Shown in pieces: positions 7,156 through 57,564 of a stretch of 59,090 bases of DNA (positions are counted from its first letter, which is position 1; each line of letters begins with the position of its first letter). The notes below the pieces were generated by a model that saw only the letters and a list, made by a program, of their open reading frames with translations, was not told where the DNA came from and ran no database searches. Position numbers and translations under genes: made by a program. Origin of the DNA: a virus; IMG/VR virus record IMGVR_UViG_3300005581_000015, positions 1-59,090 of that record; one strand, written 5' to 3'.

Positions 7156-7184
7156 TTGACCATTAATTCCCAATCTGCTATAAT
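7156..7184 (+). promoter_or_regulatory. Sigma70-type promoter, 17-bp spacer, extended -10
   Basis: TTGACC (7156-7161), a 17-bp spacer and TATAAT (7179-7184) preceded by TGC, giving an extended -10. Transcription would start near 7191, giving a short leader with AAGGAG before the ATG at 7211. The segment around its -10 (AATCTGCTATAATTACAG) is almost repeated in the next promoter at 7490-7518. Confidence 0.85.
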
Positions 7185-7210
7185 TACAGCTTGTCAACAA
7201 AGGAGTCACC

Positions 7211-7468
7211 ATGCTTACAGATGTACAAAGTGCACAAATTAATAATACTGAAGTATACACTTTAGATTACGAGGCAGAAGCCTTGCAAAGCTACCGGGAC
7301 ACCGGCGAGGACTTAATAGACGAGCTTGAGGTACGTGCAACCAATGTTATTTTGGAGCAGACAGCATGGGACGCTCGCGAGGACCTAGGCGGTATCACAG
7401 CGTACTTTCGAGATAGTACTTTAGTAGCATTTTACGATTACGAGCAGTTTCGCGGTACTGTGTTCTAA
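7211..7468 (+). CDS. Small acidic protein of unknown function
   Basis: An 85-residue acidic, soluble protein with no motif I recognise. It starts at an ATG with a strong AAGGAG ribosome binding site 7 nt upstream. It is transcribed alone from a near-consensus sigma70 promoter and is followed at once by a second such promoter. Early-type expression and small size are typical of T4-like host-takeover or regulatory proteins, but that is inference only. Confidence 0.7.
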   Translation: MLTDVQSAQINNTEVYTLDYEAEALQSYRDTGEDLIDELEVRATNVILEQTAWDAREDLGGITAYFRDSTLVAFYDYEQFRGTVF

Positions 7469-7489: not shown

Positions 7490-7518
7490 TTGACAACAAA
7501 ACCAATCTCTGCTATAAT
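7490..7518 (+). promoter_or_regulatory. Consensus sigma70 promoter
   Basis: TTGACA (7490-7495), 17-bp spacer, TATAAT (7513-7518), with TGC just before the -10. Both hexamers are perfect. The -10 ends 26 nt before the ATG at 7545, the same distance as in the 7156-7184 promoter and its gene. Confidence 0.9.
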
Positions 7519-7544
7519 TACAGTTATTGCTTTTTGGAGAACGT

Positions 7545-8684
7545 ATGAAAGTTGCAACAAAACCCGTCAAACTACTAAACCCACGTAGTGCAGATACCAA
7601 TGCCTTGGGCATGGAACCCACGTGGAATACACAGCCCACTGACAATCGATTCAGTGCACTTAGCAAAGCCTTCTCCTGGTACAATTACTTCTACGGCAAA
7701 AAAGATGCTCGTGAAATGGTTGTCAACTATCTTGAATTGCATGACCGCCGAGCAGACGTGCGCACACTCAAACGCATACCAGATAGTTCAATACGATTGA
7801 CTACAGGCTGGCTGTGCCGCATGAGCATGGTGGGACTGGAGCTCAACGATCATGAACAAATTAAATTAGATAACTTGTTAAAAGAAATGCTAGAGTCCAA
7901 ACAGGATGAAGTTGCAGAAGTGGTGTCTGTGGAAGATGCAGTGCCTAGAATCACAATTCAAGACCGATTACGTGAGAAGGTAAGTGAGTGTGCTGGTGAG
8001 ATCGATGGCATGTTTGACGAGTTCATTGACAACGGTGCTAAAATGAGCGCCGACTACAAGCCAATTGCTTTGATGCGTAGTTTAAATATTGCGCCACAAA
8101 TGGTGAGTGTACTTGGCGATATTTGGAAAAAACGCCAAGCTGATTTTGAAGAAGTCGTTGCAGGTAAAGATGCCCAACTTGTTGAAGGTTACAGCCATCT
8201 AAGCAAAATTCAGCTTCGTAATGTGTTGAAGTTTTGTGAGACTGTGGTCAACGACTGTGGAGCATACGTACAGATCAAGAAAGTTGAGCGCAAACCACGC
8301 AAAGCCAAACTCATAAGCCCAGAAAAAGTAACCGCAAAATTCAAGTTCCTCAGAGAGTTTGCTGAGCTTAAACTTAAAAGCGAACCGGTTGCCAAACTTG
8401 CAGAAGCACAAGAAGCTTGGTTATACGACACCGCAAAACGTAAATTGATACACGTTGTAGCCGATAGTCATGCTGGTAGTTTCCGTGTCAAAGGGTCCAG
8501 TGTCATTGGGTTTGATACTGTACAAACACAGCAAAAGACCTTGCGCAAGCCTGCAGAACAGCTCAAAGCGTTTATGTCAGGGGGTAAGCCGGCGGCTAGA
8601 AAGTACTTCAAAGATATCAAGAGTACAGAGGTAAAATGGAATGGTCGGAGTAACGAGAACTTGATCATACTAAGGGTCTACTAA
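7545..8684 (+). CDS. Conserved-looking hypothetical protein
   Basis: A 379-residue, lysine-rich, mostly helical soluble protein with no catalytic motif that I recognise. The start at 7545 (MKVATKPVKLLN) is preferred over an ATG at 7527 because 7527 would fall at the predicted transcription start and because TTTTTGGAGAACGT provides a ribosome binding site. Residues about 115-200 are charged and likely helical; the C-terminal 70 residues (WLYDTAKRKLIHVVAD, then SSVIGFDTVQTQQKTLRKP) look like a separate folded domain. The consensus promoter upstream suggests strong early expression. Function unknown. Confidence 0.75.
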   Translation: MKVATKPVKLLNPRSADTNALGMEPTWNTQPTDNRFSALSKAFSWYNYFYGKKDAREMVVNYLELHDRRADVRTLKRIPDSSIRLTTGWLCRMSMVGLELNDHEQIKLDNLLKEMLESKQDEVAEVVSVEDAVPRITIQDRLREKVSECAGEIDGMFDEFIDNGAKMSADYKPIALMRSLNIAPQMVSVLGDIWKKRQADFEEVVAGKDAQLVEGYSHLSKIQLRNVLKFCETVVNDCGAYVQIKKVERKPRKAKLISPEKVTAKFKFLREFAELKLKSEPVAKLAEAQEAWLYDTAKRKLIHVVADSHAGSFRVKGSSVIGFDTVQTQQKTLRKPAEQLKAFMSGGKPAARKYFKDIKSTEVKWNGRSNENLIILRVY

Positions 8685-9473: not shown

Positions 9474-9502
9474 TAGACCTTTAATTTAATTTCTTGTATA
9501 AT
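9474..9502 (+). promoter_or_regulatory. Sigma70-type promoter giving a leaderless transcript
   Basis: TAGACC (9474-9479), 17-bp spacer, TATAAT (9497-9502) preceded by CTTG. Only 6 nt separate the -10 from the ATG at 9509, so the transcript should begin at or next to the start codon. No Shine-Dalgarno sequence is present. Confidence 0.7.
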
Positions 9503-9508
9503 ACACAC

Positions 9509-10051
9509 ATGGAACTATACTCATGTGATGTAATGATAGACATTGAGTGCCTGGGCGTTGCGCCGGAAGCACTTATTTTAACTATTGCCGCTGTAGCTTT
9601 TGACCCGTTTAGTCATCGCATTGACCACGAGCATTCGCTGTATTTTAGAATTGATCCCGCAAGCCAGCCCACACGTCAAATTGACGAAGCCACTGTTGCC
9701 TGGTGGGCACAACAACCAAAAATTGCACAAGAAGAAGCATTCAGCGAAGAGGATCGAGTTCCGTTGGCTGAAGCATTACATAAACTGTCATCATTGATCT
9801 GGCGTAGCAAAAGGATATGGGCAAATGGCATTTGCTATGACATGACCATTCTTGAACATGCATACAAGCAGTTGGGTATTCCCTTGCCATGGCAATACTA
9901 CAAAGTCATGGATGCACGTACTGTTTATAAAATGCTACCCAAAGTGGGCAAGCCACCAAACAATCATCATGCATTCCATGATTGCGTTAATCAAATTGGC
10001 ATGCTACAGGAAGTGTTTAGCCATTATCGGATAAAAGAATTAGGCAATTAA
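9509..10051 (+). CDS. dexA: DexA-like 3'-5' exonuclease (DEDDh, DnaQ-like fold)
   Basis: A 180-residue exonuclease of the DnaQ/RNase-T superfamily. Motif I is MIDIECLG with the D-x-E pair near residue 10, motif II lies around WANGICYDMTILEHAY with the second aspartate, and motif III is HHAFHDC, an H-x4-D arrangement that makes it DEDDh type. The opening and the WWAQQPKIAQE segment match T4 DexA (WWKNQSPEA). DexA degrades DNA 3'-5' and is thought to take part in host DNA breakdown or repair. The start MELYS is chosen because an upstream in-frame ATG falls inside the promoter. Confidence 0.85.
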   Translation: MELYSCDVMIDIECLGVAPEALILTIAAVAFDPFSHRIDHEHSLYFRIDPASQPTRQIDEATVAWWAQQPKIAQEEAFSEEDRVPLAEALHKLSSLIWRSKRIWANGICYDMTILEHAYKQLGIPLPWQYYKVMDARTVYKMLPKVGKPPNNHHAFHDCVNQIGMLQEVFSHYRIKELGN

Positions 10052-27392: not shown

Positions 27393-27421
27393 TTGACACA
27401 AAGCAAAAATGCGTGTACACT
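27393..27421 (+). promoter_or_regulatory. Sigma70-type promoter of gp32
   Basis: TTGACA (27393-27398), 17-bp spacer and TACACT (27416-27421). The -35 is perfect, the -10 has two mismatches. It would give a leader of about 90 nt before the gp32 ATG. Confidence 0.7.
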
Positions 27422-27426
27422 TAGTC

Positions 27427-27497
27427 TGTGTGTGCATTTTTGCCTAGTGTATTAGGCATCGTGTTCGTAAGAGCACACACAAAGGCTATATTAGGCA
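27427..27497 (+). promoter_or_regulatory. Structured gp32 leader, candidate autoregulatory site
   Basis: TGTGTGTGC (27427-27435) is complementary over 9 bp to GCACACACA (27473-27481). Inside this, GCCTA (27442-27446) pairs with TAGGC (27453-27457) around a 6-nt loop. A second TATTAGGCAT copy (27490-27499) just before the ribosome binding site offers an alternative partner for GCCTA. T4 gp32 represses its own translation by binding a leader pseudoknot, so an equivalent control is likely here. Confidence 0.55.
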
Positions 27498-47849: not shown

Positions 47850-47878
47850 TTGACCAAAAATGCCCATTTTGCTATAAT
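47850..47878 (+). promoter_or_regulatory. Sigma70-type promoter
   Basis: TTGACC (47850-47855), 17-bp spacer, TATAAT (47873-47878) with the -10 extended by TGC. The -10 ends 29 nt before the small gene at 47908. Confidence 0.85.
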
Positions 47879-47907
47879 AGAAGTATAGTAAGAAACAAGG
47901 AGCAGAA

Positions 47908-48087
47908 ATGCAAATCACTACAGCGATCAAACACTTGCAAAAAGAAGCAGAATTCCTAGGCATGCCCTTGCTGGAAACCCTGCAATTTATCCAAAAAAAT
48001 CCCCTGGCTCAGCCCCAACGCACCATGGAAGCCTATCGGGTGTTTGTGTCACAGGGTAGCAAGATGTTTGCCCCGGTTGACCAATAA
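47908..48087 (+). CDS. 59-residue small protein of unknown function
   Basis: A 59-residue protein starting MQITTAIKHLQKEAEFLG, with an AAGGAGCAGAA ribosome binding site and a near-consensus promoter upstream. Helical N-terminus with HLQKEAEFLGMP, then FIQKNPLAQPQRT; the stop lies inside the next promoter's -35 region. It is real because promoter, ribosome binding site and coding frame agree. Function unknown. Confidence 0.7.
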   Translation: MQITTAIKHLQKEAEFLGMPLLETLQFIQKNPLAQPQRTMEAYRVFVSQGSKMFAPVDQ

Positions 48088-48105
48088 TTTGGTTTGTTAT
48101 ATAAT
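48077..48105 (+). promoter_or_regulatory. Sigma70-type promoter overlapping the preceding stop
   Basis: TTGACC (48077-48082), 17-bp spacer, TATAAT (48100-48105). The -35 overlaps the last codons of the 59-residue gene. The -10 ends 29 nt before the AAA+ ATPase ATG, identical to the previous unit. Confidence 0.85.
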
Positions 48106-48134
48106 ACTTGTATTGAAACTTTAAAAGGACTTGC

Positions 48135-49169
48135 ATGAGCACTATTCGAGTAGTCAACGGCGTTTATCGTAATCAGCCCGTTCGTAATGTTACTTTTACT
48201 CTTGTAAAAGGGTTTCAAACTGGCGCCAAGGGCGGGTTTGTTACTGTAGACAGCAATGGTTACTTTGGACCCGAGTTTGACAAAGTGCGCATCCGGGTCA
48301 GTGACATCAACGACGTTGAATATGTAAATGGAGAATCTATGCCCCAGGCAAAAACACAGAAGGTAGTAGAGTTTAAAAAAGAAGTGCCGGTAGAGACTGA
48401 AGAACAGGCTATGGCACGTATTCGTGAGCGTTTTGAGATCTTGCATGAGATGACAAAGGCCGCAACTGCCGGCGACATTCGTGCTATGATTGTCAGCGGC
48501 CCGCCCGGCGTAGGCAAGAGCTTTGGTGTTGAGCAAGAAGTTGACAAGGCTTGCTTGTTTGACAAACTCAGTGGCAAGCGACTCCGTGCAGAGGTAGTCA
48601 AGGGCAGTGCTACCCCAATTGGTTTGTACCAAACATTGTACAAATATTCTGACCCCAACTGTGTGTTGGTGTTTGACGACTGTGACAGCATCTTGTTAGA
48701 TGATGTTGCTCTTAACTTGCTCAAGGGTGCCCTGGACTCAGGCAAGAAGCGTAAGATTTCCTGGTTGTCAGAGTCCAGCACTTTGCGACGTGAAGGCATC
48801 CCAGATCAATTTGAGTTCAAAGGCAGTGTTATCTTTATTACAAACTTGAAGTTTGACCAAATGAAGTCGCAGAAGTTGCGGGATCACTTGGATGCATTGC
48901 AAAGTCGTTGTCACTACCTGGACTTGACCTTGGATACCATGCGTGACAAGATCTTACGCATTAAACAGATTGCCAGTGATGGTGTGTTATTCCAAGACTA
49001 CGAGTTTGAGAAGTGTACCCAGGACGACATCATTGAGTTCATGAATACCAACCAAGCTCGCTTGCGTGAGATGAGTTTGCGCATGGCTCTTAAGATTGCA
49101 GACTTGGTCAAGAGCTTCCCTGCAAAGTGGAGACTTATGGCTGAGACTACTTGCATGAAGAGTGCCTAA
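48135..49169 (+). CDS. AAA+ ATPase
   Basis: A 344-residue AAA+ protein. Residues 1-85 are a beta-rich N-terminal domain. Walker A is SGPPGVGKSF near residue 122, Walker B VLVFDDCDSILLDD near residue 175, and the sensor-1 segment VIFITNLKFDQM near residue 238. SRCHYLDLTLDTMRDKI is the C-terminal lid region. Family membership beyond AAA+ is unclear; similar proteins in T4-like phages are annotated simply as ATPase. TTTAAAAGGACTTGC precedes the ATG. A terminator follows. Confidence 0.85.
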   Translation: MSTIRVVNGVYRNQPVRNVTFTLVKGFQTGAKGGFVTVDSNGYFGPEFDKVRIRVSDINDVEYVNGESMPQAKTQKVVEFKKEVPVETEEQAMARIRERFEILHEMTKAATAGDIRAMIVSGPPGVGKSFGVEQEVDKACLFDKLSGKRLRAEVVKGSATPIGLYQTLYKYSDPNCVLVFDDCDSILLDDVALNLLKGALDSGKKRKISWLSESSTLRREGIPDQFEFKGSVIFITNLKFDQMKSQKLRDHLDALQSRCHYLDLTLDTMRDKILRIKQIASDGVLFQDYEFEKCTQDDIIEFMNTNQARLREMSLRMALKIADLVKSFPAKWRLMAETTCMKSA

Positions 49170-50734: not shown

Positions 50735-51951
50735 TGCAACCTAGTAATCTTTGCCTAGCACCATTCACTTATATGACTTTTGATCCAGCTACAAATGTCA
50801 GCCCGTGCCCAGCATTGGGCGGAAGTGTTTGGAACTTTAAAGATCAGCCGTTACAACGAATCTGGACCAATGAACAGTTAACTGAATTTAGAGACCACAT
50901 GCTAGAAAACAACAAGCATGAAGTGTGCCATCGTTGTTGGGATGAAGAAGCAGTTGGCATGGACAGCGAACGCACAATGTTATGGGATCCAGACAAAGAC
51001 CCCACCGGAGTTAATACTGTAATTCTTGACAGCGGTAAAACAGCCGCAGATATTTTAAGAAATTACAAACAAGGACCAATGCAACTTATTATCAAAGTAG
51101 GCAATGTTTGTAATCTTCGATGCCGTAGTTGTAATTCTGCAGACAGTATTACTTTATCTGTCGAAGGAAAGTATTATGCAGACCATTATGGATTAACAAA
51201 AAATTTCTATCTTAAAGAGACTGAGACTAAAACATTTACTGATGCACAAATTGATGAGATAATCCAATTTTGCAATAACGTTGTTAGGATTGAATTTTAT
51301 GGCGGCGAACCATTATTGGACAAACAGCTTCCTAAATTTTTACGTAAGTTAGTTGAACTTGATCTTGCTAAAAAAATCAATTTAAACATCAGCACCAATG
51401 TCACACACATAATCAGCGATGAGCTAATTGAAACTTTGTCACATTTTAATCATTTAAACATTAATTTAAGCATTGATGCTTGGGGAGATAAGTTTACCTA
51501 TGTACGACATCCAGGTAAGTGGAATGATGTCTACTGCAACATTAAATGGTTTATCCAACTGCGAGATTCAGGAAAACTAAAGCTATCATTATTGATAGCA
51601 ACAACCGTGACAATAATGAATGTCTACAACTTGCCAGAACTGCTAGATGAATTTGATTTGTTGGAATTACCGGTATTCTTAATATTAGCATGGTTCCCAC
51701 ACTATTATTCTATTAGAAACATCCCAGACAATATTGCACAAGCAATTGCCCAACGTCTAACTGCAACCGGCCGCAACAATCTTCGACCCATTACACAGGC
51801 CCTAAGCAACGGCTTTGATGCAGAACACTGGGGCAAATTTAAGAGTTGGACCATCATGGTTGACAAGTATCGCAACGAATCCTTTGCAACAACATTTCCA
51901 GAATACACAAAATTAATAAAAACCTATGACGATAAGGTTGACTTTGTTTGA
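50734..51951 (+). CDS. Radical SAM protein, twitch type (copy 2)
   Basis: A 405-residue radical SAM enzyme. C-x3-C-x2-C at C126, C130 and C133 (VCNLRCRSC). GGEP-like motif FYGGEPLLDKQ. Auxiliary N-terminal cysteines C7, C25, C65 and C68, as in copies 1 and 3, suggest a second iron-sulphur cluster in a twitch domain. The start MQPSNLCLAPF at 50734 overlaps the uvsW stop and is preferred over 50716. Substrate unknown. Confidence 0.82.
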   Translation: MQPSNLCLAPFTYMTFDPATNVSPCPALGGSVWNFKDQPLQRIWTNEQLTEFRDHMLENNKHEVCHRCWDEEAVGMDSERTMLWDPDKDPTGVNTVILDSGKTAADILRNYKQGPMQLIIKVGNVCNLRCRSCNSADSITLSVEGKYYADHYGLTKNFYLKETETKTFTDAQIDEIIQFCNNVVRIEFYGGEPLLDKQLPKFLRKLVELDLAKKINLNISTNVTHIISDELIETLSHFNHLNINLSIDAWGDKFTYVRHPGKWNDVYCNIKWFIQLRDSGKLKLSLLIATTVTIMNVYNLPELLDEFDLLELPVFLILAWFPHYYSIRNIPDNIAQAIAQRLTATGRNNLRPITQALSNGFDAEHWGKFKSWTIMVDKYRNESFATTFPEYTKLIKTYDDKVDFV

Positions 51952-51966
51952 CAAATCGTTTAATAT
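51938..51966 (+). promoter_or_regulatory. Sigma70-type promoter giving a leaderless transcript
   Basis: TTGACT (51938-51943), 17-bp spacer, TAATAT (51961-51966), then 6 nt and the ATG at 51973. The spacing is identical to those before dexA and gp61. No Shine-Dalgarno sequence is present. Confidence 0.6.
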
Positions 51967-51972
51967 ACTAAC

Positions 51973-52473
51973 ATGCAAATACTAACTTTAGACGACACAT
52001 CATATGAATTAAATAGCTTGCCAGACGAAGTTGAAGACTTGCGTTTTGCTATTTTTGACAACTCAAACACACAAGATCCAGATTATTATTTTATTCCGTT
52101 GATCTTTCTTGAAAGTTTTACAGCGCCAGCCTTAGTATTACAAATTGGTAGCCACACAGTTAAAATGCCACTGGACTGGCAAATCTTAATTGGAGAGCCA
52201 GACCTAGGTGACTTGGAAGTTCTGCCTCTAACTTCAATAAATGATCGTGGGTTTACGGTATTCCAATTCAATCCACTGAGTAGTTTTAGGCCTAGTTTTT
52301 TGCCCATTGAGATAGTTGACGTCTACAGTGAAGTAACATGGTTTGCTCCTAAATTAAAGAATGGGCAATTCCTATGTGTGCCACTAGACGGTAGTGACAA
52401 TCCTGAATGTGTTTATTTTGTTAAAGATGTAAGTCGTAACTGTGAGATTGTAGATTATAACAAGGCCTGGTAA
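51973..52473 (+). CDS. Hypothetical protein
   Basis: A 166-residue acidic protein with conserved-looking PLIFLESFTAPALVLQIGSHTVKMPLDWQILIGEPDLGDLEVLP. Beta-strand content is high; a possible single-domain regulatory protein. I recognise the type from aquatic T4-like phages but have no function for it. It opens a five-gene cluster including gp62-like and DnaE-like proteins. Stop overlaps the next start (TAATG). The surrounding promoter suggests early expression. Confidence 0.7.
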   Translation: MQILTLDDTSYELNSLPDEVEDLRFAIFDNSNTQDPDYYFIPLIFLESFTAPALVLQIGSHTVKMPLDWQILIGEPDLGDLEVLPLTSINDRGFTVFQFNPLSSFRPSFLPIEIVDVYSEVTWFAPKLKNGQFLCVPLDGSDNPECVYFVKDVSRNCEIVDYNKAW

Positions 52474-55470: not shown

Positions 55471-56537
55471 ATGTATTCAACCACCGTTTACTTATACCAA
55501 CAAATTCAAAAGGTTTTATTGGTGGACACCAGTGGTGCCTATTTTACCGCGAGATATAATCCTGTGTACGCAAAACAATTAACCATCAACAAAGGGGTTG
55601 ACAATGTGCTGTTGTTTGAGTTTATCAATCAAGAGCAAAAGCCTGTCAACGTTACTGGTAGTACGTTTATTTTCCGCTTGCTAAGTCAAGACGGCAGTCA
55701 AATACTAGTTAGCAAAGAAATGGTGGCACTGAGTGCAAATCTGGGCAGAGTTAAAGTAGTGTTAGAGCCCAGCGACACTGACAACATTGTTGCCCAGCCT
55801 GCCAGTTACAGCATAGAACGCTTTAGTGGTAGCTATGAGCAAGCAGTGTTTACCAATGGTAATAGCGCGGCACGTGGTGATGCTAATGTAGTTGACAGTG
55901 TATTTCCGGAATTTATTGACAGCCGAGAAGTAACAATTCCCACTGTTAATCTTGGCGCCATGTATCCCACCACAAACGGTGCCAATGGCTGGCCCGACTG
56001 GGGAGGTAATCAACCTCCCTATAATCAATTACAGTTGACTGAGTTTTATAGCAGCCATTTTACCACCTATAATGGGTTAGTGACAATACGCATGAACATG
56101 CTGAACTTCACTGGCACAGTTAAAGTACAGTCAGCGGATACCTACCAAAGTCCTTGGTATGATGTTTCAGACAGTACACAGTACCTTAACAAAAGTGGAC
56201 AGGTTTATATGAATGTATTGGGTTTCTATCCATTGTTGCGCCTGGCATTTAACAAGAGCATCGGCACAGGAGCATCAGCAACTGCCACTGTGGAAGATAG
56301 TGTAGTAACTGCAATCACTATAAAGAACGGTGGGCTAGGTTATATTGCCGCACCCAATGTTACTATTTTGGGCGATGGTGCAGGAGCGATTGCTACAGCC
56401 GAAATCAATGGCGGCACCGTGACAATATCAACCTGATAAGTGGAGGTAGTGGATATTGGCCAGCTAATTTTTCTAATACCGATAACGCCGTAGTAGTAAT
56501 CAACACAGGATTTATTTTAGATATCCTTGCTCGTTGA
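55471..56537 (+). pseudogene. Virion structural gene with a -1 frameshift near its 3' end
   Basis: The intact frame (55471-56436, 321 residues) opens with a BppU-like N-terminal domain (LTINKGVDNVLLFEFINQ, TGSTFIFRLLSQDG) and ends in repeats such as GLGYIAAPNVTILGDGAGA. It stops abruptly after GGTVTIST. In the next frame the sequence continues NINLISGGSGYWP to 56537, the expected end of such repeats. One missing A near 56425 explains it. It may be a sequence error, a mutation, or a programmed -1 shift. Probably a baseplate or fibre component. Confidence 0.6.
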
Positions 56538-56562
56538 CCTGCAATAATTATTATGCTATAAT
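56534..56562 (+). promoter_or_regulatory. Sigma70-type promoter giving a leaderless gp61 transcript
   Basis: TTGACC (56534-56539), 17-bp spacer, TATAAT (56557-56562) with extended -10 TGC. Then 6 nt and the ATG at 56569. No Shine-Dalgarno sequence. Confidence 0.8.
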
Positions 56563-56568
56563 CATAGC

Positions 56569-57564
56569 ATGATCGATCTGGCATCCTACCTACCTGCAAA
56601 AAGAAAACATACCCCATCGGGATGGATGAGTTTCAATGCGGTTTGTTGCACACACAATGGCAACAATTTGGACAAGCGGCAACGTGGTGGTATCAAGTTG
56701 TCAGACCAAGGTTGGAGTTACCATTGCTTTAACTGTGGATACACTGCTAGTTTTATTTTAGGTCGCACTCTGAGCTTTAAAGCTCGAAAGCTATTAAGTT
56801 GGATGGGGGTGCCGGATCACGAAATTGACATGGCTAATCTTGAAAGCCTAAGACACAAAAGCATACATGGCATTCTTGATGAACGACAACAAACGTTCAA
56901 TGCATTGGCTGCAATTGAGTTTGGAGACGCTGATGATTTACCTCCTTTTAGTGAAGTCGTCACAGAAGACTATCCTTATTATTGGAAATATATTCGCCAG
57001 AGACATGTCCCAGAAGATTTTCCTATACTAACTGCAATTAAAAATGATGGTGTTCATTGGGTTAGACCTTTTGTGCTGGTACCGTTTACATATGACAACA
57101 AGGTAGTGGGCTGGACTGCTAGATTTTTAGATAATAAACTACCCAAGTATATTAATCATTCGCAACCGGGGTATGTATTTGGCACAGACTTACAACAATC
57201 AAACTGGGAACATGTTCTGGTGATGGAAGGCATTTTTGACGCACTCAGTATTGGCGGCCTTGCAGTTATGCACAACACTGTCAGCGACAGTCAAGCTAGA
57301 TTAATACGTAGTTTAGGCAAACAGGTAACTGTTGTGCCTGACCAGGACAAAGCAGGATTAGAATTAATTGATCGTGCTGTAGAACTAGGATGGGCAGTAA
57401 GTATACCCACCTGGCCAGAACATATTAAAGATGTAAACGATGCTGTAATAGCATATGGTAGGTTGGGTGCATTATTAACTATAATGCAGGCAAGGGAGAC
57501 CAGTAGAATTAAAATAGAAATGCACAAGAAAAAACTCATCAAGACATTGGCATTAAAAAAATGA
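56569..57564 (+). CDS. 61: DNA primase (gp61-like)
   Basis: A 331-residue DnaG-type primase matching T4 gp61 (342 residues). Zinc-binding N-terminus: VCCTHNGNNLDKR with WSYHCFNCGY. TOPRIM core: LVMEGIFDALSI and VPDQDKAGLELI. It makes RNA primers together with gp41 helicase, encoded 1.1 kb downstream behind a radical SAM gene. The ATG is at 56569 next to the promoter, so a leaderless start is likely. Confidence 0.9.
   Translation: MIDLASYLPAKRKHTPSGWMSFNAVCCTHNGNNLDKRQRGGIKLSDQGWSYHCFNCGYTASFILGRTLSFKARKLLSWMGVPDHEIDMANLESLRHKSIHGILDERQQTFNALAAIEFGDADDLPPFSEVVTEDYPYYWKYIRQRHVPEDFPILTAIKNDGVHWVRPFVLVPFTYDNKVVGWTARFLDNKLPKYINHSQPGYVFGTDLQQSNWEHVLVMEGIFDALSIGGLAVMHNTVSDSQARLIRSLGKQVTVVPDQDKAGLELIDRAVELGWAVSIPTWPEHIKDVNDAVIAYGRLGALLTIMQARETSRIKIEMHKKKLIKTLALKK

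Follow-up and report, generated by a model that had tools for sequence, protein, structure and literature searches.

Predicted leaderless genes behind ordinary sigma70-type promoters in a group of jumbo phages

Three genes in the window, the whole 59,090-base stretch of phage DNA analysed here, are predicted to be transcribed as leaderless mRNAs from ordinary sigma70-type promoters, which is the best and very probably the correct explanation of their upstream sequences, although the 5' end itself is deduced from promoter geometry. The -10 hexamer of a sigma70 promoter occupies positions -12 to -7. Six nucleotides between this hexamer and the start codon therefore place +1 on the A of the ATG. 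An ordinary host-sigma70-type promoter would be positioned for transcription to start at this A, the gene would give its own leaderless mRNA (leader of 0-2 nt) and ribosomes would enter at the 5'-terminal AUG (or GUG) without a Shine-Dalgarno (SD) sequence, presumably by 70S-type initiation. The layout appears to be an old feature of a jumbo-phage group, carried by a recurring set of genes and most stable on that of the gp61 primase.

A sequence-only reading had proposed the arrangement -35, 17 bp, -10, 6 nt and ATG, with no SD, at three sites, and direct reading of the sequence confirms all three, each on the + strand. The first precedes a DEDDh-type exonuclease gene, called dexA in that reading (9509-10051; PF16473, E 1e-33; phrog_255 exonuclease, E 2e-44): a -35-like TAGACC (9474-9479; 4 of 6 consensus positions), for which relatives have TTGACA or TAGACA/T in this position, is followed 17 bp on by TATAAT (9497-9502) and by ACACAC up to the ATG. 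The second precedes a hypothetical gene matching phrog_11279, of unknown function (51973-52473), with TTGACT (51938-51943), 17 bp, TAATAT (51961-51966) and ACTAAC. Its -10, matching the consensus at 4 of 6 positions, is the weakest of the three; another hexamer, TATACT, is found 3 nt before the ATG at 51973, and in relatives the -10 is mostly TATACT, TATTAT or TATAAT, 5-8 nt from the start. The third serves a gp61-type DNA primase gene (56569-57564), identified by phrog_47 DNA primase (E 4e-29) and a Toprim match, with TTGACC (56534-56539), 17 bp, TATAAT (56557-56562) and CATAGC. An SD of at least 3 nt was looked for at the three starts and found at none. Within the window alone, a promoter at 5-7 nt occurs for 3 of 86 candidate starts versus 123 of 43,524 other ATGs (binomial p 0.002). 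A fourth scan match, at GTG 27428, was rejected as a false start: TTGACA-17-TACACT lies ahead of the ORF (27393-27428), orthologues begin with MASL(A/S)EIRARL further downstream, and the promoter probably gives a long leader rather than a leaderless start.

The same window contains promoters of conventional layout, also on the + strand. Two have 26 nt and an SD between -10 and ATG: TTGACC-17-TATAAT at 7156-7211 (-10 at 7179, ATG 7211) and TTGACA-17-TATAAT at 7490-7545 (-10 at 7513, ATG 7545). Two more, both TTGACC-17-TATAAT, have 29 nt, with AAGGAG at 47850-47908 (-10 at 47873, ATG 47908) and AAAGGA at 48077-48135 (-10 at 48100, ATG 48135). These had been described as giving leaders of 26-29 nt with an SD; the promoters and SD sequences stand, but 26-29 nt is the -10-to-ATG distance, and the leaders would measure about 20-23 nt. 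Column by column, 30 leaderless promoters agree in consensus with 74 leadered ones, both showing TTGAC and (TGn)TATAAT; only the part downstream differs. With TTGACA/TATAAT hexamers and a 16-18 bp spacer, both classes have one sigma70-type consensus, and no separate promoter type was seen for the leaderless genes. T4-type late promoters consist of TATAAATA without a -35. They too were rejected, since TATAAATA is rarer than expected in all five contigs described below and a -35 is present.

The -10-to-ATG distances, whose count had been suggested as a check, were tallied over five contigs, possibly incomplete: the window, G001 (364 kb), G002 (345 kb), G003 (225 kb) and G006 (183 kb). Promoters were scored by consensus count and genes called by a simple longest-ORF method, so that starts are rough where orthologues were not aligned. 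The distribution is bimodal. Among 1620 candidate starts, 21 promoter matches lie at exactly 6 nt, with five more at 5 nt and another five at 7 nt; the six distances 8-13 nt together hold 4, and a broad second mode begins at 14 nt. The 43,524 other ATGs show flat distances, with 43 at 6 nt. For the 6-nt peak, a Poisson estimate (mean 2) is ~6e-15 and a binomial one ~7e-17. Taking the best promoter per gene, an SD of at least 3 nt is present in 2 of the 34 genes whose distance is 5-7 nt, as against 104 of the 145 at 14-45 nt; where no promoter was found the figure is 417 of 1025, probably a lower bound owing to the rough starts. All 31 well-scored leaderless starts are ATG, a weak test given that the scoring penalised other codons, and gp61 begins with GTG in L007, G002 and the cultured phage PAC2, where this codon is at record position 131220 and opens the predicted sequence VISELLKQ (Met as first residue). 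Leaderless genes amount to some 2% of the called genes, a minority next to those with leaders. The whole genomes of PAC2 and RaK2 show no 6-nt peak in the same count, and there the layout would concern single genes, if any; SCTP-2 has a small peak, with 4 and 3 matches at 6 and 7 nt and none at 8-12 nt. The earlier proposal of a class of mRNAs starting at the AUG is thus upheld as a predicted leaderless class, on the grounds of conservation, bimodality and absence of an SD where there is no leader, but not as a class with its own promoters.

Megablast of the first 20 kb of the window against 50,697 phage records gave no match. At the protein level, 61 of these records contain a relative of the gp61-type primase; among the best 40, 38 are records of at least 284 kb and two are shorter. 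From IMG/VR, 80 of 105 gp61 loci, 28 exonuclease loci and 80 of 306 loci of the hypothetical gene were taken, and near copies were filtered out at 80% identity over 75 nt, reducing gp61 from 103 to 23 loci, the hypothetical gene from 86 to 27 and the exonuclease from 29 to 10. With the -10-to-start distance left free within 3-39 nt, the -10 of these nonredundant upstream regions falls at 5-7 nt in 22 of 23 for gp61, at 5-8 nt in 25 of 27 for the hypothetical gene and at 5-7 nt in 8 of 10 for the exonuclease. The upstream DNA diverges, while the hexamers and ATG remain fixed, and the -35 with 16-18 bp spacing is conserved too. The gp61 exception, L072, is leaderless under the rule used for the gp61 tree, and in both exceptions for the hypothetical gene -10-like hexamers are seen by eye 6-7 nt before the ATG. 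L095 and L101 are the exceptions for the exonuclease: their -10 lies at 32 and 29 nt, respectively, and each has GGAG, which suggests that leader and SD come and go together. The hypothetical protein has the same start residue in five isolate orthologues, with no -10 at 6 nt in any; an SD-like stretch is seen by eye in four of these loci and none is clear in Phosso.

It is quite unlikely, although the promoters would then be just as real, that the proteins start at a downstream codon behind an ordinary leader, for example at Met9 of the exonuclease (9533) or at the deposited gp61 starts of PAC2, SCTP-2 and XacN1. A Met ahead of the catalytic Asp is conserved in the exonuclease relatives, and the predicted gp61 starts of these three isolates are followed by the GenBank ones 102, 96 and 153 nt (34, 32 and 51 codons) further downstream (L259:377, L260:380 and L564:374, respectively). 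However, in gp61 and the hypothetical gene, third codon positions are diverse and second positions nearly silent from the proposed ATG onward and not before; SD-led orthologues begin at the same residue; and the deposited starts leave the gp61 zinc finger without its first cysteines. The deposited PA5oct start lies 6 nt upstream of the predicted one. The start of leaderless gp61 would therefore be set downstream in three of the four annotated isolates read, a repeated annotation error that is expected if gene callers seek a ribosome-binding site.

The leaderless state of gp61 appears to be inherited. A tree of 45 rows, including 12 isolates hand-picked from the 61 records, was rooted at its midpoint; several deep joins are unsure owing to long branches. 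Thirty-seven rows are leaderless and 8 SD-led, rows L275, L280, L350 and L376 being biased in that they came via the leaderless pattern itself. Two state changes are needed, against a mean of 7.5 after shuffling, and none of 500 shuffles needed so few. The SD-led rows comprise a clade of RaK2, GAP32, Munch, XaC1, SNUABM47 and Vibrio 2.275.O, and the pair Atu_ph07 and Phosso. Among cultured phages, gp61 is leaderless in PAC2, SCTP-2, XacN1 and CM1, and the PA5oct upstream region is the same as that of PAC2, by eye. In six large records picked through matches in other genes (G014, G015, G016, G019, G023 and G025), gp61 is leaderless in 6 of 6. The gp61 primase of jumbo phages makes a clear case for comparative study, in that one defined gene has inherited the leaderless state; PA5oct/PAC2, XacN1, SCTP-2 and CM1 make it directly testable, and orthologue swaps between leaderless and SD-led states amount to a natural experiment on phage use of 5'-terminal AUGs.

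The sequence-only reading had added that leaderless mRNAs might be favoured during host translation changes. In its strongest form, the class would be part of a phage programme shifting host ribosomes toward 5'-AUG mRNAs by means of a phage bS21 and an initiator tRNA. A bS21 gene is present in 8 of 14 clade records (L190-L197), with none found in the window fragment, and bS21-encoding huge phages form five clades, according to PMC9723584. An initiator-type tRNA-Met occurs in G001, G002, G003, PAC2 and PA5oct (C1:A72) and in SCTP-2 (T1:C72), and a review states that more fMet-tRNA strongly boosts leaderless translation (PMC9031893). A first tRNA pattern matched 3 of 34 records and a looser one 6 of 34, including all five long records then known to be leaderless at gp61. 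This association was broken by further loosening and added isolates, and the tRNA was rejected as a partner of the class: initiator-like tRNAs are also present in GAP32, CBB, BF and SNUABM47, all SD-led at gp61, whereas none was found by pattern in CM1, XacN1, G014, G015, G016, G019, G023 and G025, all with leaderless gp61. Moreover, bS21 touches the SD/anti-SD helix (PMC9723584), which would favour SD-dependent initiation, and many genes of these phages keep their SD. The added suggestion found no support in these comparisons, and we give such a programme little credence. The tRNAs of GAP32, CBB, BF and SNUABM47 have T1 and, where the end was read, A72; initiator-type loci are L216:2109-2183, L231:19000-19074, L243:5231-5305, L585 and L603.

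Least probable of all is that the hexamers represent chance or A+T-rich translation enhancers, with expression by read-through from upstream: a co-directional gene lies upstream of 24 of the 31 leaderless genes and the -35 of the window exonuclease is imperfect, but the conserved -35 and spacing and the missing 6-nt peak at other ATGs argue against it, and for the leaderless class chance is excluded.

If the genes are leaderless, the likely benefit would be that some 40 bp between two co-directional genes hold a complete promoter with its start site, giving the gene its own transcription unit. The gap to the upstream co-directional gene has a median of 42 nt for leaderless genes versus 65 nt for leadered ones, so compactness may help; it would be at most a partial reason, because no more than 8 of the 31 leaderless genes have a -35 that falls within an upstream ORF. 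Reduced structure at the 5' end of the coding sequence was rejected as a trait of the class, the first 36 nt of leaderless genes being not significantly less structured than those of other genes (p 0.25-0.37). A more speculative idea, which we regard as doubtful, is that of a translation gate. Read-through RNA would carry gp61 without a ribosome-binding site, so that primase would be made only from its own host-sigma70 transcript, an arrangement selected and then inherited through the diversification of the jumbo-phage group. The phage would in that case control when primase is made, and in what low amount, without regard to the operon in which gp61 sits.

Further leaderless genes are predicted for a UvdE-type endonuclease (PF03851), an SbcD-like phosphoesterase, a protein with a match to a 'cysteine dioxygenase' PHROG and small proteins that match nothing above the cut-off; the gene of a 5'-3' exonuclease (PF02739) is leaderless in one contig of four. 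Counting orthologue pairs, with the false start 27428 included in the leaderless class, 14 are leaderless-leaderless, 6 leaderless-leadered and 40 leadered-leadered, and leaderless genes are paired with an intermediate distance in 3 cases and with no promoter found in 19. A strict pattern search of IMG/VR points the same way: among the matches listed, 82 of 139 at 6 nt have an ATG that begins a real ORF, versus 18 of 120 at 10 nt (p 1e-13). Of these 82 ORFs, again from the matches listed, 33 have a relative in the five contigs, including gp61, the exonuclease, the PF02739-type exonuclease, UvdE and the hypothetical gene. Applied to bacterial genomes, this pattern gives 37 real ORFs among the 119 matches listed, mostly from Clostridia by their titles; leaderless starts are therefore not confined to phages.

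Comparable systems exist. The lambda cI mRNA is transcribed from PRM and, as commonly described, resembles the transcripts predicted here in combining a phage gene, host sigma70 RNA polymerase and a 5'-terminal AUG without an SD; cI is one repressor gene of a temperate phage, whereas here a recurring set is concerned, several of its members for DNA metabolism, in jumbo phages. PMC9031893 names cI as leaderless and states that translation from a 5'-terminal AUG needs no SD. Bacterial TA-led genes, as presented in PMC3160421, carry not an SD but a TA-like signal, located some 10 bp ahead of the start; the phage genes likewise have a -10-type signal about 10 bp upstream and no SD, but the published survey concerns cellular genomes, and here a conserved -35 and 17-bp spacer are found as well. 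In Deinococcus-Thermus a -10 adjoining the ORF similarly yields leaderless mRNA, an important mode in that phylum according to PMC12340547 and a minority one here. The giant phage AR9 is also a jumbo phage, and its authors remark, in PMC5312081, that phage transcripts are often leaderless; unlike the phages here, AR9 has its own multisubunit RNA polymerases and leaders of 26-491 nt. A search of titles and abstract openings, which left most subscription papers outside, found no report that jumbo phages have a conserved set of leaderless genes, and a word search of the main texts of jumbo-phage reviews from 2021 and 2026 found no use of 'leaderless'. The leaderless kind is thus known and its jumbo-phage instance apparently undescribed.

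Several further features stand out. The gp61 -10 sits within the inverted repeat ATGCTAT-AATC-ATAGCAT (56553-56570), a possible operator. Arm length averages 4.13 in 23 nonredundant gp61 relatives versus 3.57 in shuffled halves (p 0.001); an operator-like repeat common to all sites was rejected, since relatives of the hypothetical gene do not exceed shuffles (p 0.98; exonuclease left out). Six of the 82 pattern ORFs form one family starting MYD(I/V) (L269, L283, L307, L385, L427 and L495); a distant relative occurs in G002 or, in the case of L269, in G006. Finally, a terminator-like hairpin and T run hold the -10 upstream of one gene, which we take to be J-domain-like, in G001 (66849, - strand), G002 (10470, - strand) and G003 (105600, + strand), as if terminator and promoter had been fused.
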